A model generated the notes under the pieces. That model saw only the letters and a list, made by a program, of their open reading frames with translations, did not search any database and was not told where the DNA came from. Below are positions 35,386-44,948 of a DNA stretch of 64,000 nt, piece by piece (position 1 is the first letter of the stretch; each line of letters opens with the position of its first letter). The position numbers and the translations under genes are program-made. The DNA is from Rhodovulum marinum (GTDB lineage: Bacteria; Pseudomonadota; Alphaproteobacteria; Rhodobacterales; Rhodobacteraceae), in contig NZ_SLXP01000008.1 of NCBI RefSeq assembly GCF_004343075.1, positions 124,001 through 188,000 of the forward strand. The letters run 5' to 3'.

Positions 35386-36538
35386 AGACTGGCAAGCAGG
35401 CGGCTTCGGCCTGTATATCCACTGGCCGTTCTGCCTGGCCAAGTGTCCCTATTGCGACTTCAACAGCCATGTCGCGGCGACCTTCGACACGGCTGCCTGG
35501 AAATCGGCTTACCTGTCTGAAATTCAACGGATCGGCCAGGAAACCGGGCCCCGCACTCTGAATACCGTGTTCTTCGGCGGCGGCACACCCAGCCTGATGG
35601 ATCCTGATCTCGTGGCCGCGATTCTCCAGGCGATACGCAAGACGTGGCCCTGCGCCAACGACATGGAGGTCACGCTCGAGGCAAACCCGACGTCTGTCGA
35701 GGCCGGCCGCTTTGCGGGCTTTCGCGATGCCGGCGTGAACCGGGTGTCTCTTGGGGTGCAGGCGCTGAACGACGCGGATCTGCGCAGGCTGGGCCGTTTG
35801 CACGATACCGCCGAGGCCCGCGCGGCCTTTGACATTGCTCGCGCCGCGTTCGACAGGGTCAGCTTCGATCTGATCTATGCCCGGCAAGGTCAGACACCCG
35901 AAGAGTGGCGCGCGGAGCTGGACGAGGCGCTGGCGATGGCCGTCGACCACCTTTCGCTGTATCAGTTGACCATCGAACCGGGGACGGCATTCGGCGACCG
36001 CCATGCCCGTGGTCTGTTGCGGGATTTGCCCGATGACGACCGCGCGGCGGACATGTATGCCTTGACGCAAGAGGTTTGCGCCAAGGCCGGTCTGCCCGCC
36101 TATGAGGTGTCGAACCACGCCCGGCCGGGGGCGGAATCCCGGCACAACCTGATCTATTGGCGATATGGCGATTATGCCGGGATCGGTCCCGGCGCCCATG
36201 GTCGGCTGACCCTTGGCAGGCGGCGCTGGGCGATCGAAACGCCGTTGTCGCCTTCGGACTGGCTGGCCCGTGTCAGCCAGCGGGGCACGGGCGAGACGGA
36301 AAGAACGCCGCTCAGCCCTGCGGATCAATCAACCGAATACCTGTTGATGGGACTGCGCCTTGCCGAGGGGATTTCGCTGACCCGCTATGCCCGTCTTGCA
36401 GGAGCACCTTTAAATCGCAACAATATCAATGCTCTAAAGGATATGAATCTGATTGTTCAGGACGGCGATAGGTTGCGGGCCACGACCACGGGCCGTGCAT
36501 TGCTCAACAGTGTCCTCCGCGAACTTCTGTCCGGCTGA
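35375..36538 (+). CDS. hemW: Haem chaperone HemW (radical SAM, formerly coproporphyrinogen oxidase-like)
   Basis: A radical SAM protein that inserts haem into respiratory enzymes. The 387-residue protein has the 4Fe-4S motif CLAKCPYCDF (CXXXCXXC) near residue 25 in the context YIHWPFC, then FFGGGTPSL and NRVSLGVQALND. It lacks the extra N-terminal residues of genuine HemN, which supports HemW. I placed the start at the TTG 35375 (TAEDWQAGGFGLY follows), which overlaps rdgB; upstream in-frame ATG codons give unrelated residues. It is convergent with parB with six bases between stops. Confidence 0.88.
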   Translation: MTAEDWQAGGFGLYIHWPFCLAKCPYCDFNSHVAATFDTAAWKSAYLSEIQRIGQETGPRTLNTVFFGGGTPSLMDPDLVAAILQAIRKTWPCANDMEVTLEANPTSVEAGRFAGFRDAGVNRVSLGVQALNDADLRRLGRLHDTAEARAAFDIARAAFDRVSFDLIYARQGQTPEEWRAELDEALAMAVDHLSLYQLTIEPGTAFGDRHARGLLRDLPDDDRAADMYALTQEVCAKAGLPAYEVSNHARPGAESRHNLIYWRYGDYAGIGPGAHGRLTLGRRRWAIETPLSPSDWLARVSQRGTGETERTPLSPADQSTEYLLMGLRLAEGISLTRYARLAGAPLNRNNINALKDMNLIVQDGDRLRATTTGRALLNSVLRELLSG

Positions 36539-38284: not shown

Positions 38285-38897
38285 GGGCGATGCCTCCGAG
38301 TTTCAGGATGACGGCCTGGGGATCGGTCTTGCTGGGAAATTTCTGAACGTCGAATGTCCAGGATGCAAGCGCGTGGTCGAGTTCGCGCACATGCTGGGCA
38401 CCTTTTAGAAACAGGGCGATCCCATCATGGGCAAGATGGCGATACGACAAACCGATAAGCGTATCCAGCGGCGCAAGGGCGCGGGCAGACACGACATCCG
38501 CGCCGCGCGGCGGAACATCCTCGATTCGCTTGGCGAACACGCTAATATTGCCTAATCCCAGCTCGCGTGCGGCGGTCTGCAGGAACGCGGCCTTTCGCTT
38601 GTCGCTTTCAATCAAGTCTACCTCGAGCAGCGGCGCATGCTCGGCCGCTAGAATAGCCACGACGAGTCCCGGAAATCCTCCGCCGCTGCCCAAATCCGTC
38701 CAGCGCCGGGCGCCTTTAGGCGAATGATCGAAAACCTGCATGGAATCAATTACGTGGCGATTCTCAAGATCATCCAGGCTGCCCTTGGACACCAGATTGA
38801 TCGCCGGATTCCATTTGCGAATCAGGTCTTTTAGTCGAGACAGGCGGTCTGATGTTTCACGTGAAACATCGCTCGCTGGCAACGGCGCGACACTCAT
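38277..38897 (-). CDS. rsmG: 16S rRNA m7G527 methyltransferase RsmG (GidB)
   Basis: Methylates G527 of 16S rRNA. The 206-residue protein has the SAM motif [16 protein letters not shown] near residue 68, [20 protein letters not shown], and [11 protein letters not shown]. It overlaps mnmG by ATGA at its start and parA at its end. A perfect parS palindrome lies in its 5' coding part (38853-38868), encoding the VSRET stretch near residues 11-15, so both the protein and the segregation site constrain the same bases. Confidence 0.96.
38853..38868. promoter_or_regulatory. parS site inside rsmG
   Basis: A perfect match to the 16-bp ParB-binding palindrome TGTTTCACGTGAAACA. It lies in the coding sequence of rsmG near its start, about 0.6 kb upstream of the parA start and about 5.1 kb from the putative oriC. 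Confidence 0.97.
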
Positions 38898-40768
38898 GCC
38901 GACTGACGCTCCATCTGGCGAAGCCGCGCCAGGACCAATGTCAGGGCAGCCGGCGTCATCCCGTCGATTCGCGCCGCCTGCGCCAAGGTTTCGGGGCGCG
39001 CAACGGACAGCTTGGATTTCAACTCGTTGGACAACCCCTCTATCCGCTCGTAAGGAAAATCCGATGGAAGGGCCTGCGCCTCGTCGCGGCGCATGGCTTC
39101 CACATCCTGTGCCTGCCGCCTTATGTAGTTGGCATACAAGGCATCGCGTTCGATCTGGGCGCGAATCTCCGGCGCTGTCCGTTCCAACGCGGGATCTAGT
39201 GGAACAAGATCGGCAAAACCCACATCTGGAAAGGCCAGAACATCCAGACCGCTCCGCCGCGCTCCATCCGCATTCACCTTAATACCCGCTTCCGAGATCT
39301 GCTTTGGCGTCAGGGACATCGCCTCGAGGCGGCTTCGCGCCTTATCCATCTGCTCCATCTTGGTGTCGAACACCCTTGCCCGGTCCGGCCCAACACATCC
39401 GATTTCCATCCCCAAAGGCGTCAAACGCTGATCAGCGTTGTCGGCGCGCAGCGAAAGACGGAACTCGGCTCGCGACGTGAACATCCGGTAAGGTTCGCTG
39501 ACCCCCCTCGTCACAAGGTCATCAATCATGACCCCGATATAGCTGTTGGTTCGGGTAAACGGCACAGGCGCGTTCCCTTTGGCCTGGCAAGCGGCGTTCA
39601 GACCGGCGACGAGCCCCTGTGCAGCCGCCTCCTCATATCCGGTCGTTCCATTGATCTGCCCAGCCAGGTAAAGCCCCGGCACATCCCGCAGTTCCAGTGT
39701 CGCGCGCAACGCCCGCGGATCAATGTAATCATACTCGATCGCATAACCCGGCTGCAGAATTCTTGCTTGCTCAAGCCCCAAGATTGACCGGACATAGGCC
39801 TCCTGCACCTCTTCCGGCAAGGACGTCGATATTCCGTTGGGATAAACCGTCGGGTCGTCAAGTCCTTCTGGTTCCAGGAAAATCTGGTGCGAGTCCTTAT
39901 CGGCAAAGCGCACCACCTTGTCCTCGATGGACGGGCAATAGCGGGGCCCCACGCCTTCGATATGGCCCCCATACATCGCGGAACGACCAAGATTTTCGCG
40001 AATGATCTCATGGGTCCGCGCGTTTGTGTGCGTGATTCCGCAAGAAATCTGTGGCACTGCAACCGTCTGCGATAGAAAGGAAAACAAGACCGGTTCATCG
40101 TCACCTGGCTGAGATCCAAGCCGGTGCCAGTCGATGCTACGCCCATCCAGTCGTGGCGGGGTTCCCGTCTTGAGACGACCGAGTGGTAGTCCAAAGGCGT
40201 CGATCCTCTGGGCCAATGGCACCGAAGGGCGATCACCCATTCGTCCGCCGTCCATCCGCCGGTCTCCGATATGGATCACGCCGCGCAGGAACGTTCCCGT
40301 TGTCAGAACAACGGCGTGCGCATGGATTTCGGACGAGTCGGCCAGCCGAACACCGGTGATCCGGCCTCGATCCTCCAGCAAGTCGACCACTTCGCCCTCG
40401 ATGATCGACAGGCATTCGATGCCGGACAACGCGGCCTGCACCGCCTCGCGGTACAATTTCCGGTCGGCCTGGGCCCGGGGGCCTTGCACTGCCGGCCCCT
40501 TGCGGCGGTTGAGCAGGCGAAACTGGATTCCGGCGCGGTCGGCGGCCAAACCCATCACGCCATCCAACGCATCCACTTCCCGCACCAGGTGCCCCTTGCC
40601 CAAGCCACCTATCGCCGGGTTGCAGGACATCACCCCGATTGCGTCGCGCCGCAACGTGACGAGGGCAACGCGAGCGCCCAGGCGCGCGGCGGCATGGGCG
40701 GCCTCGGCCCCTGCATGGCCACCCCCTACGACGATGATATCGAAGTCGAGATGTTTCACGTGAAACAC
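38894..40768 (-). CDS. mnmG: tRNA uridine-34 5-carboxymethylaminomethyl modification enzyme MnmG (GidA)
   Basis: FAD-dependent partner of MnmE that modifies the wobble uridine of certain tRNAs. The 624-residue protein has the FAD-binding [12 protein letters not shown] near residue 10, [19 protein letters not shown] near 49, and the C-terminal helical tRNA-binding domain. It starts with a GTG at 40768. The first six codons (M-F-H-V-K-H) are made of the parS palindrome at 40752-40767. The gene follows mnmE by three bases and overlaps rsmG. Confidence 0.97.
40752..40767. promoter_or_regulatory. parS site covering the mnmG start
   Basis: A second perfect TGTTTCACGTGAAACA. It begins one base inside the GTG start codon and encodes the MFHVKH N-terminus of MnmG, about 3.2 kb from the putative oriC. 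Bound ParB would sit on the translation-initiation region of mnmG and could affect passing RNA polymerase. Confidence 0.97.
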
Positions 40769-43474: not shown

Positions 43475-43924
43475 TCAGAACTTCAGCACCACAGCGAAGA
43501 CGATCACCAGCATAAGCAGCGTGGGCAGTTCGTTCATCATCCGGTAGGTGCGCCCGGTACGGGTATTGGCCCCTGCCAGGAATTCCTTGCGCCGCGCTCC
43601 CAGCCACATGTGGAACCAGGTCATCGCGATCACTGCCGCGCCCTTGGCATAGGGCCAGACCGACCCCCAATCGACGATCCCCGGCGTGAACACCAGTGCC
43701 AGCCCGAAGATCCAGACCGCGATGATCGACGGGTTCATGATGTAGCGATACAGCTTCATCTCCATGACCTTGAAGATCTCGTCCGTCTCGCTGCCAACGG
43801 TGGCGCGTTCGACATGATAGACGAAGATCCGGGGCAGGTAGAAAATACCTGCCATCCAGGTCAGCACCGCGATGATGTGCAGCGACTTCGTCCAAAGATA
43901 GAAGGACGCGAGGAACTCACCCAT
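43475..43924 (-). CDS. hemJ: Protoporphyrinogen oxidase HemJ
   Basis: Membrane protein that oxidises protoporphyrinogen IX in many Gram-negatives lacking HemG/HemY. The 149-residue product has four predicted helices and the conserved His and Arg residues in KSLHIIAVLTWMAGIFYLPRIFVYH and WFHMWLG. It was long annotated as a CopD- or UPF0093-type protein. I chose the ATG at 43924, with GGAG eight bases upstream; a GTG at 43933 is possible. It is the last leftward gene before the putative oriC. HemE, commonly its neighbour in this position in other alphaproteobacteria, is absent here. Confidence 0.93.
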   Translation of the reverse strand: MGEFLASFYLWTKSLHIIAVLTWMAGIFYLPRIFVYHVERATVGSETDEIFKVMEMKLYRYIMNPSIIAVWIFGLALVFTPGIVDWGSVWPYAKGAAVIAMTWFHMWLGARRKEFLAGANTRTGRTYRMMNELPTLLMLVIVFAVVLKF

Positions 43925-44348
43925 TCTTTCCACTCCAACGCTGGGAACTGCCCGGCCCCTTCTAGAGGAATAAGTAAAGAAAAGAAAAGATGATGATTTT
44001 GTAGGGGCTGTGGGCGATGGGGATTATTGGTCCCTCCCCGGATTAACCCACAGGCAAGGTTCTGTTGAAAAAGATGTTGGTATCTCCTGGATGCGGGCCT
44101 TATCAGATTTTTGTATTTTTATACCAATGGCTTACGCTTCCACGAAATTCGGCTTGCTTGTGGATGTTCGGGGATGATTTGCCGCAGTCCGATTCGCCCA
44201 CAGCGGTGCGCGGGGAAACTCCACCGTGGATGGAAGGACCTGGCCGCTTGACTTTTTCCCGGGTGACCGGCACCCCGGGACCGCGGCGTCGGGTTGTTCC
44301 ATGTCTTGCGACAGTCCTGTCCGCGGTTTTCCACAGGGTTGTGCCCGG
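43925..44348. other. Putative chromosomal replication origin (oriC)
   Basis: The only gap over 300 bases in the window. It is flanked by hemJ-rho-mnmE-mnmG-rsmG-parAB on the left and maf-aroE-coaE-dnaQ on the right, all reading away from it, as at alphaproteobacterial origins. It is AT-rich relative to its surroundings, especially 43968-44000 (purine-rich) and 44101-44128 (TTATCAG followed by T/A runs), good candidates for the unwinding element. DnaA-box-like 9-mers: TTTTCCACA at 44327-44335 (8/9), TAACCCACA at 44044-44052 (7/9) and the reverse complement of TGTGGATGT at 44159-44167 (7/9). Weaker CCCACA cores occur at 44009-44017 and 44194-44202. One GANTC (44191-44195) is present. I see no convincing small gene here. 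Confidence 0.78.
44327..44335 (+). promoter_or_regulatory. Best DnaA-box match in the putative oriC
   Basis: TTTTCCACA, one mismatch from the consensus TTATCCACA, 14 bases before the maf start codon. DnaA binding here could also influence maf transcription, which is inference. Confidence 0.6.
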
Positions 44349-44948
44349 ATGTCTGACCGCGTGATCCTTGCCTCCGGTTCGCCGATCCGGCGACAGCTTC
44401 TTGAACGGGCCGGGCTCGTCTTCGAGGTGATGCCGGCCCCCGTCGACGAAGACGCCATTCGTGACGGCATGATGGCCGATGGCGCGACGCCTGCCGACAT
44501 CGCCGAGACCCTCGCCGCCTTCAAGGCCGAGCGCGTCGCGGGCAAGGCGCCCGAGGCGCTGGTTATCGGCTGCGATCAGGTTCTGGCCCATCGCGGCCTT
44601 GTGCTGGGCAAACCTGCCACGGTCGACGAGGCGCGGGCGCAGTTGCGTAAGATGCGGGGCGGATCGCACCAGTTGATGTCGGCGGTCGTGGTCTATGACG
44701 ACCTGCGCCCGCTTTGGCGCCATGTCGGTACCGTGACCCTGACGATGCGACCGTTTTCAGATGCGTATCTAGACCTGTATCTAGAGCGGAACTGGGAACG
44801 CGTGCGCGATTCGGTGGGGGCCTACAAGCTCGAGGAAGAAGGCATAAGATTGTTCTCGCGCATCGAAGGCGACTATTTCGATGTGTTGGGATTGCCACTT
44901 CTGCCGCTTCTGACCTTTCTGACCACGCGCGGAGCCTTGATGTCATGA
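44349..44948 (+). CDS. maf: Maf-family nucleotide pyrophosphatase
   Basis: Hydrolyses non-canonical or modified nucleoside triphosphates. The 199-residue protein has ILASGSPIRRQLLERAGL at the N-terminus, LVIGCDQVL with the metal-binding Asp, and the later EEEGIRLFSRIEGDYFDVLGLPL. Substrate subclass (dTTP/UTP or m7GTP type) cannot be fixed here. The ATG at 44349 is the first start after the putative oriC and has only a weak ribosome site. It overlaps aroE by ATGA and heads maf-aroE-coaE-dnaQ. Confidence 0.93.
   Translation: MSDRVILASGSPIRRQLLERAGLVFEVMPAPVDEDAIRDGMMADGATPADIAETLAAFKAERVAGKAPEALVIGCDQVLAHRGLVLGKPATVDEARAQLRKMRGGSHQLMSAVVVYDDLRPLWRHVGTVTLTMRPFSDAYLDLYLERNWERVRDSVGAYKLEEEGIRLFSRIEGDYFDVLGLPLLPLLTFLTTRGALMS

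Follow-up and report, generated by a model that had tools for sequence, protein, structure and literature searches.

Where does replication of the main chromosome begin in this genome? The stretch of DNA that we have analysed (the window, 64 kb, G000:C8:124001-188000, from a draft assembly in 38 contigs that totals 3,945,381 bases) contains an intergenic gap of 424 nt at 43925-44348, for which an original prediction had put forward the role of a putative chromosomal oriC. From the sequence evidence, we consider it very probable that this gap serves the main chromosome as its oriC. We favour this reading because the gap and its array of DnaA boxes are conserved in relatives, because the only parS sites of the genome adjoin it, because sampled GC-skew minima indicate the same neighbourhood in four relatives whose contigs are of chromosome length, and because a profile of the left module of the gap maps upstream of hemE, a flank of the Caulobacter oriC, in other alphaproteobacteria. 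These lines agree with one another, and the location of oriC at the gap is strongly supported; the functions of the boxes, the IHF-like site and the trios are ones that we infer from sequence. The position of oriC in a Rhodovulum-like genome is an ordinary matter, yet one that is useful for work on skew, copy number and segregation.

The gap separates two divergent genes with start codons at 43924 and 44349, both of which point away from it. On the left is hemJ (43475-43924, minus strand), encoding the protoporphyrinogen oxidase HemJ; the assignment rests on NCBIfam TIGR00701, with E = 1.7e-39 and a score of 135.2 bits that is slightly below the curated cut-off of 138.05, and the nearest named relatives of the protein are those of Rhodovulum species, at an identity of 91% or less. 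On the right is maf (44349-44948, plus strand), encoding a Maf-family nucleotide pyrophosphatase (TIGR00172, 121.4 bits against a cut-off of 117.15). Further out lie rho, mnmE, mnmG, rsmG, parA and parB on the left, and genes including aroE, coaE, dnaQ, fxsA, mltA and an Smr-domain gene on the right, and the gene order given originally (rho-mnmE-mnmG-rsmG-parAB to the left, maf-aroE-coaE-dnaQ to the right) is correct. The accompanying remark that nearly all of the flanking genes read away from the gap applies to the nearest genes, but not farther out, where a crude longest-ORF model gives 8/10 on the left and 6/14 on the right within 10 kb of the gap. This crude model hides the hemJ-maf gap under a spurious antisense ORF, and gives three other gaps of more than 300 nt, where the hemJ-maf gap had been taken to be the only one. 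The gap was also said to be AT-rich in a GC-rich context, and this is so: it has a GC content of 54.7% (43934-44348), lower than that of all 64 of the 64 1-kb windows, for which the minimum is 58.5%. No match to Rfam at gathering thresholds was found within the 64-kb window.

Conservation of the gap and its DnaA boxes

Is the gap a conserved feature? We took as relatives the best 80 loci by HemJ similarity, which are mostly from Rhodobacteraceae or its genera and are not independent of each other. A divergent hemJ/maf gap of 385-455 nt, with a GC content below that of its locus, is present in 79 of the 80; the exception (L016) has no maf match, and its contig ends 93 bases past hemJ. When the gap region served as a DNA query against 16 genomes of the genus, 15 gave a match, that of the window among them, and G004 did not. 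When the gaps of the 79 relatives were aligned together with that of the window, giving a set of 80, the order of the blocks was found to be fixed. On the hemJ side a purine-rich tract is followed by GATGATGATG-GTAGGG. Several TCCACA motifs in both orientations come next, followed by an IHF-like block, and the final conserved block ahead of maf is TTNTCCACAGG.

DnaA boxes were scored by the number of mismatches to TTATCCACA, with the chance expectation taken from dinucleotide shuffles. The boxes are degenerate in the species of the window itself. At one mismatch or fewer its gap contains one box, TTTTCCACA at 44327, with a shuffle P of 0.057 that is weak alone; at two mismatches or fewer it contains five (P = 0.001), in agreement with the original description of several DnaA-box-like 9-mers of which the best is at 44327. 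With these five boxes the gap ranks first in box density among 1944 overlapping 420-nt windows spanning sampled stretches of its own contig and the dnaA and hemE loci, the runner-up elsewhere having four. The box statistics of a single species are weak, and the case was therefore built on the relatives. Over the 80 gaps there are 18 boxes without a mismatch (0.2 in shuffled sequences), 221 with up to one mismatch (8.4 ± 2.7), many of them at aligned places, and 543 with up to two (96.8).

The individual boxes can be followed through the alignment, where the counts below refer to gaps with two mismatches or fewer at the aligned place. Box 1 (TCGCCCACA, 44009-44017, minus strand) has three mismatches in the window (48/80 gaps). 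It is contiguous with box 2 (TAATCCCCA, 44018-44026, minus strand; 47/80), which contains TCCCCA, described as the W-box consensus of Caulobacter (PMC4285127). There follow box 3 (TAACCCACA, 44044-44052, plus strand; 53/80), box 4 (TTTTCAACA, 44063-44071, minus strand; 45/80) and box 5 (ACATCCACA, 44159-44167, minus strand; 46/80). A further degenerate box, again TCGCCCACA with three mismatches in the window, is found at 44194-44202 (plus strand; 24/80), and the box nearest to maf, at 44327-44335 (plus strand; 54/80), is the best match of the gap.

The alignment also contains a candidate site for IHF. The sequence TACCAATGGCTTA (44122-44134, plus strand) differs at one position from WATCAANNNNTTR, which we take to be the IHF consensus and used for scoring. 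A site with no more than one mismatch is present at the aligned place in 40 of the 80 gaps, compared with a shuffled expectation of 0.7%. A GANTC site had been offered as additional support for an origin. One such site is indeed present (GATTC at 44191), but it lends no support, since GANTC is depleted in the 80 aligned gaps (88 occurrences against 136 by chance). CtrA sites (TTAA-N7-TTAA) are found in 3 of the 80 gaps, with a total of 6 that is not above the shuffle maximum of 6. With no excess of CtrA sites and GANTC depleted, both were dropped as origin support. The depletion of GANTC in the 80 gaps is contrary to what is expected under control of the origin by CcrM.

For searches outside this set we constructed a sequence-only profile of the left module (R1; 77 rows, window positions 43966-44075). 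An extra stretch is present in three of the 80 gaps (L073, L076 and L079), and these three are not among the 77 rows of the module alignment and of R1. The profile matches its own genome once, with E = 5e-22.

parS sites, GC skew and linkage to hemE

At one mismatch or fewer the draft genome contains exactly two parS sites, both of them in the window and 3.2-5.1 kb from the gap. Each is a perfect 16-mer, one at 38853-38868 within the 5′ end of rsmG and the other at 40752-40767 at the 5′ end of mnmG. Six relatives likewise have exactly two parS sites each, 3-5 kb from the same gap, and only one of these 12 sites has a mismatch. Both parS sites of the window are inside the 5′ ends of genes; the mnmG frame starts VFHVKH, the translation of the site, and thus a segregation signal and a protein start share the same sequence.

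A minimum of GC skew was expected at the gap. We sampled skew from four relatives whose contigs measure 3.1-4.7 Mb, taking stretches of 20 kb. In three of them the minimum is 2-42 kb away: at 6 kb in G013 (bootstrap range −41 to 34 kb, 33 stretches), at 42 kb in G016 (a wide range of −53 to 172 kb, 20 stretches) and at 2 kb in G017 (also wide, −269 to 582 kb, 20 stretches). In G010, however, it is found 140 kb rightwards of the gap, and zero is outside the bootstrap range of 55 to 303 kb (40 stretches). The skew of G013, G016 and G017 therefore agrees with the gap, and that of G010 indicates a position somewhat to its right. The own contig (C8, 204,199 bases) has negative skew in 19 of 20 10-kb pieces, on both sides of the gap, and over the 36 kb that follow on the right there is no lasting switch of skew; in 1-kb steps the only positive skew near the gap covers 44-46 and 48-50 kb of the window. 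An inversion to the right of the origin is a possible cause of this persistently negative skew. In the four relatives the counts of GGGNAGGG change over from one strand to the other at the gap, but on the own contig nothing clear is seen.

Could the true oriC then lie next to dnaA, or at a distance of 100-200 kb on the right-hand side of the gap, with the hemJ-maf region an old origin? The predominantly negative skew to the right of the gap on the own contig would fit with this, as would G010, where the skew is mostly negative up to 125 kb to the right and the bootstrap range leaves out the gap. Yet the minima of the other three relatives fall close to the gap, no DnaA box with one mismatch or fewer is present in 3.5 kb around dnaA or in 4 kb around hemE, and R1 has its single match in the genome at the gap. 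We regard an origin at either of these places as very improbable.

Profile R1 matches 145 of 385 alphaproteobacterial genomes at E ≤ 0.01, against a chance expectation of about 4 if its rough E-values are accurate. We examined 30 of the loci, comprising that of the window, three from the same family with hemJ/maf flanks, and 26 from outside the family, of which six were top matches taken automatically and 20 were picked by hand from the list. At 23 of these 26 the match immediately precedes hemE, no more than about 115 nt from the matched start of that gene; two are upstream of rho, and one has no matched flank. The two loci with the module upstream of rho (L244 and L248) have no hemE match in the stretch examined, and provide another instance of a rearranged flank. 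The Caulobacter origin has been placed experimentally between hemE and COG1806 (PMC1914354). In the genome of the window hemE is on contig C1 (G000:C1:489843-490850) and not at the origin, and COG1806 (PF03618) was not found. Upstream of this hemE there is merely a GC-rich ladder, with no box of one mismatch or fewer in 4 kb and no R1 match. To judge from these sequences, the origin module has stayed with the gap and not with hemE.

This linkage bears on a more modest interpretation of the gap. Since hemJ and maf are divergent they require promoters within it, and DnaA can regulate transcription. Might the gap be only a shared promoter and regulatory region of hemJ and maf, on which DnaA acts as a transcription factor, while replication starts elsewhere? 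The lack of a lasting skew switch at the gap on the own contig would be in keeping with this. But at 23 of the 26 loci in other alphaproteobacteria the left module is upstream of hemE, and not of hemJ; the module therefore tracks the place and not the gene. Moreover the skew minima of the four relatives and the parS sites indicate the same neighbourhood. A role confined to promoter function is thus very unlikely in our judgement.

We return to the gap as oriC. By its sequence we place it among the alphaproteobacterial oriCs, as one whose flanks have changed. It is intergenic, AT-rich and several hundred bases long, and has a cluster of DnaA boxes above chance expectation. Since its left-module profile maps beside hemE at 23 of 26 loci outside the family, it would be homologous to the hemE/COG1806 region, although its own flanks differ; parS and parAB are nearby; and it contains what is, by sequence, an IHF-like site.

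The unwinding region and a G ladder beside box 1

Where within the gap would the DNA open? The T/A tract at 44101-44128 had been suggested. Of all 30-mers in the window the one that melts most easily (44099-44128) does coincide with it, and the tract overlaps the conserved IHF-like site. Among 50-mers, the one that melts most readily in the whole window spans 43957-44006 on the hemJ side of the gap, narrowly ahead of 36408-36457. A purine-rich tract (43967-43989, plus strand), conserved in both the 80- and the 77-sequence alignments, would be the outer part of a probable unwinding element. The more likely site of unwinding is this tract together with the adjoining G ladder, at 43957-44006.

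The ladder, GATGATGATTTTGTAG (43989-44004, plus strand), has G at a step of three and resembles a series of DnaA-trios. Read away from box 1 it is 3′-GAT GTT TTA GTA GTA-5′, and a GC-rich spacer, GGGGC (44004-44008, plus strand), connects it to the box. G is present at 43989, 43992, 43995, 43998, 44001 and 44004 in 61, 69, 76, 45, 66 and 72 of the 77 rows respectively; the window itself has T, not G, at 43998. In this G phase the middle base is T at trios 2, 3, 4 and 5 in 53, 73, 63 and 64 of the 77 rows, and A at trio 1 in 57 and at trio 6 in 51. The box-proximal trio is TAG (3′-GAT-5′) in 52 of the 77.

The ladder was sought independently of R1 in the 250 nt upstream of hemE, at 30 loci chosen by hemE score alone. 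The own locus and L283 (Rhodobacteraceae), for which the origin is elsewhere, were removed to leave 28. Four or more repeats of G([AT][AT]G) occur in 10 of the 28 hemE upstreams (0.02 in shuffled sequences) and in 14 of the 80 gaps (0.12), with none on the opposite strand in either set. Three or more occur in 14 of the 28 (0.49 shuffled, none on the opposite strand) and in 31 of the 80 (1.25 shuffled, one on the opposite strand). Two or more steps with adenine in the middle are present in 9 of the 28 upstreams (shuffled 1.19) and 4 of the 80 gaps (3.49), and two or more with thymine in 11 (2.84) and 64 (4.98) respectively. Thus A- and T-middle steps are both above chance outside the family, and T-middle steps alone are so in the Rhodobacteraceae gaps. 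Under a looser rule a ladder is found in 19 of the 28 upstreams and none in 9; two of the 19 have three consecutive A-middle trios, and 10 have two consecutive T-middle trios. Some of the ladders are canonical beside the box, such as that of L260, with three TAG followed by TTG, and others, such as that of L284, have a single A. What is conserved in the position of DnaA-trios is thus a ladder, with a function that we infer.

How does the ladder relate to the trios already known? Using a rule of adenine in the middle, trios have been found in 85% of 2070 origins, and deviant trios that lack it have been suspected (PMC8287927). In the G phase not every trio of the ladder has a middle adenine; another phase would provide it. 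The element might comprise normal DnaA-trios, 3′-TAG TAG TAG AAA-5′, with A in the middle and a spacer of 11 from box 1, within the published peak of spacer length at 10-13 bp (PMC8287927). We scored this as at least three 3′-NAN-5′ trios within 16 nt of a box, with local shuffling of the 40 nt beside each box. The window does fit this rule (a run of four, spacer 11) if a box with three mismatches, rather than two, is accepted. For boxes of two mismatches or fewer, however, such runs are found in 44 of the 80 gaps, compared with 60.8 after local shuffling, and in the hemE upstreams in 10 of 28 compared with 13.5. The rule is thus obeyed less often than in local shuffles, and has no discriminating power here. 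In addition the conserved letter is the G at a step of three, and some ladders upstream of hemE, those of L259 and L284 among them, do not have three A-middle trios in a row in the ladder phase. On balance we think normal trios in another phase rather unlikely.

Read in the G phase, the ladder departs from the published middle-adenine trio motif, and we did not find this departure described in the literature searched. The same is true of T-middle trios in alphaproteobacteria, for a search without supplements and most subscription papers, so that an earlier account is possible. What might read such a strand? In B. subtilis DnaA, Asn187 and Glu183 contact the middle adenine and Arg202 and Glu228 contact the G, and a middle T at trios 1-3 impairs the system, initiation being rarer than with C there (PMC10721633). 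The DnaA of the window's genome (L001, G000:C14) was aligned to 8btg. Asn187 corresponds to Tyr190 and Arg202 to Lys205, and Glu183 and Glu228 are kept.

Of 31 alphaproteobacterial genomes (the own and 30 others), 29 have Tyr at the position equivalent to Asn187, one has Phe and one has Asn; Tyr is also present in one further alphaproteobacterial DnaA, from a phylum-wide set. Among 27 DnaAs of the phylum from outside the class, taken from the best-scoring loci in a search of 60 genomes, the position is T in 8, N in 8, A in 7 and Q in 4. Tyr at this position therefore goes with the alphaproteobacterial class. In a single case, G203, which keeps Asn, A or C is in the middle of five consecutive ladder trios. 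The idea of Asn187 as a simple switch is weakened by the range of residues (T, N, A or Q) in the 27 DnaAs and by the unchanged Glu183 of the own DnaA. A tie between Tyr and the T-middle ladder is put forward as a hypothesis only, because the site is variable and the alphaproteobacteria are a single clade.

We tentatively suggest that alphaproteobacteria could use a recoded DnaA-trio, with G at every third base and a middle base that may be T (3′-GT[A/T]-5′), read by a DnaA with Tyr in place of Asn187; this is a real possibility, if not one that we would call probable. The 3′-GT[A/T]-5′ form of the ladder is most uniform in Rhodobacteraceae. If true, this would be a deviant trio lacking the middle adenine, of the sort suspected in PMC8287927.

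Taken together, the elements of the gap suggest the following sequence of events. DnaA would bind the array of boxes, and IHF would bend the DNA at 44122-44134. From the contiguous boxes 1 and 2 (44009-44026), DnaA would cross the GC spacer and extend along the ladder strand at 43989-44004, where the G ladder would take the role of the DnaA-trios, although in most relatives the middle base of trios 2-5 is T rather than A. This DnaA would open the purine tract within 43957-44006; helicase would be loaded there and two forks would depart. The new origins would then be segregated by ParB bound to the two parS sites at a distance of 3-5 kb.

Comparison with known origins

Origins of Rhodobacteraceae, the same family, have been predicted with Ori-Finder using the minimum of GC disparity, a local GC minimum, proximity to parAB and DnaA boxes (PMC6699656). 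These are predictions, with which we found no description of flanks or internal parts, and hemE is absent from the text of that paper. What is added here is a conserved internal map of the origin.

The comparison with Cori, the oriC of Caulobacter crescentus, rests on its published features and on the hemE linkage. Both have an AT-rich tract, DnaA boxes including the TCCCCA W-box type, and one IHF-like site (PMC1914354, PMC4285127), and the R1 module of the gap recurs upstream of hemE in other members of the class, where maf and aroE often lie further out. They differ in that the gap is flanked by hemJ and maf, with hemE on another contig and COG1806 not found, and in that it has no excess of CtrA sites and is depleted in GANTC.

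With the basal unwinding system of B. subtilis the gap shares two contiguous boxes, a short GC spacer and a strand with a periodicity of three bases in which G is mostly kept (PMC8287927, PMC10721633), as well as the box-proximal TAG in most of the 77 rows. It differs in the T-middle trios at positions 2-5, where A is described as required, and in having a DnaA with Tyr at the position of B. subtilis Asn187. The T-middle ladder bears on whether trio recognition by base capture is universal, and on whether it requires an amine-bearing middle base. If the ladder acts as trios, the code would vary among DnaA proteins, and the residue at Tyr190/Asn187 would be a direct candidate for the cause.
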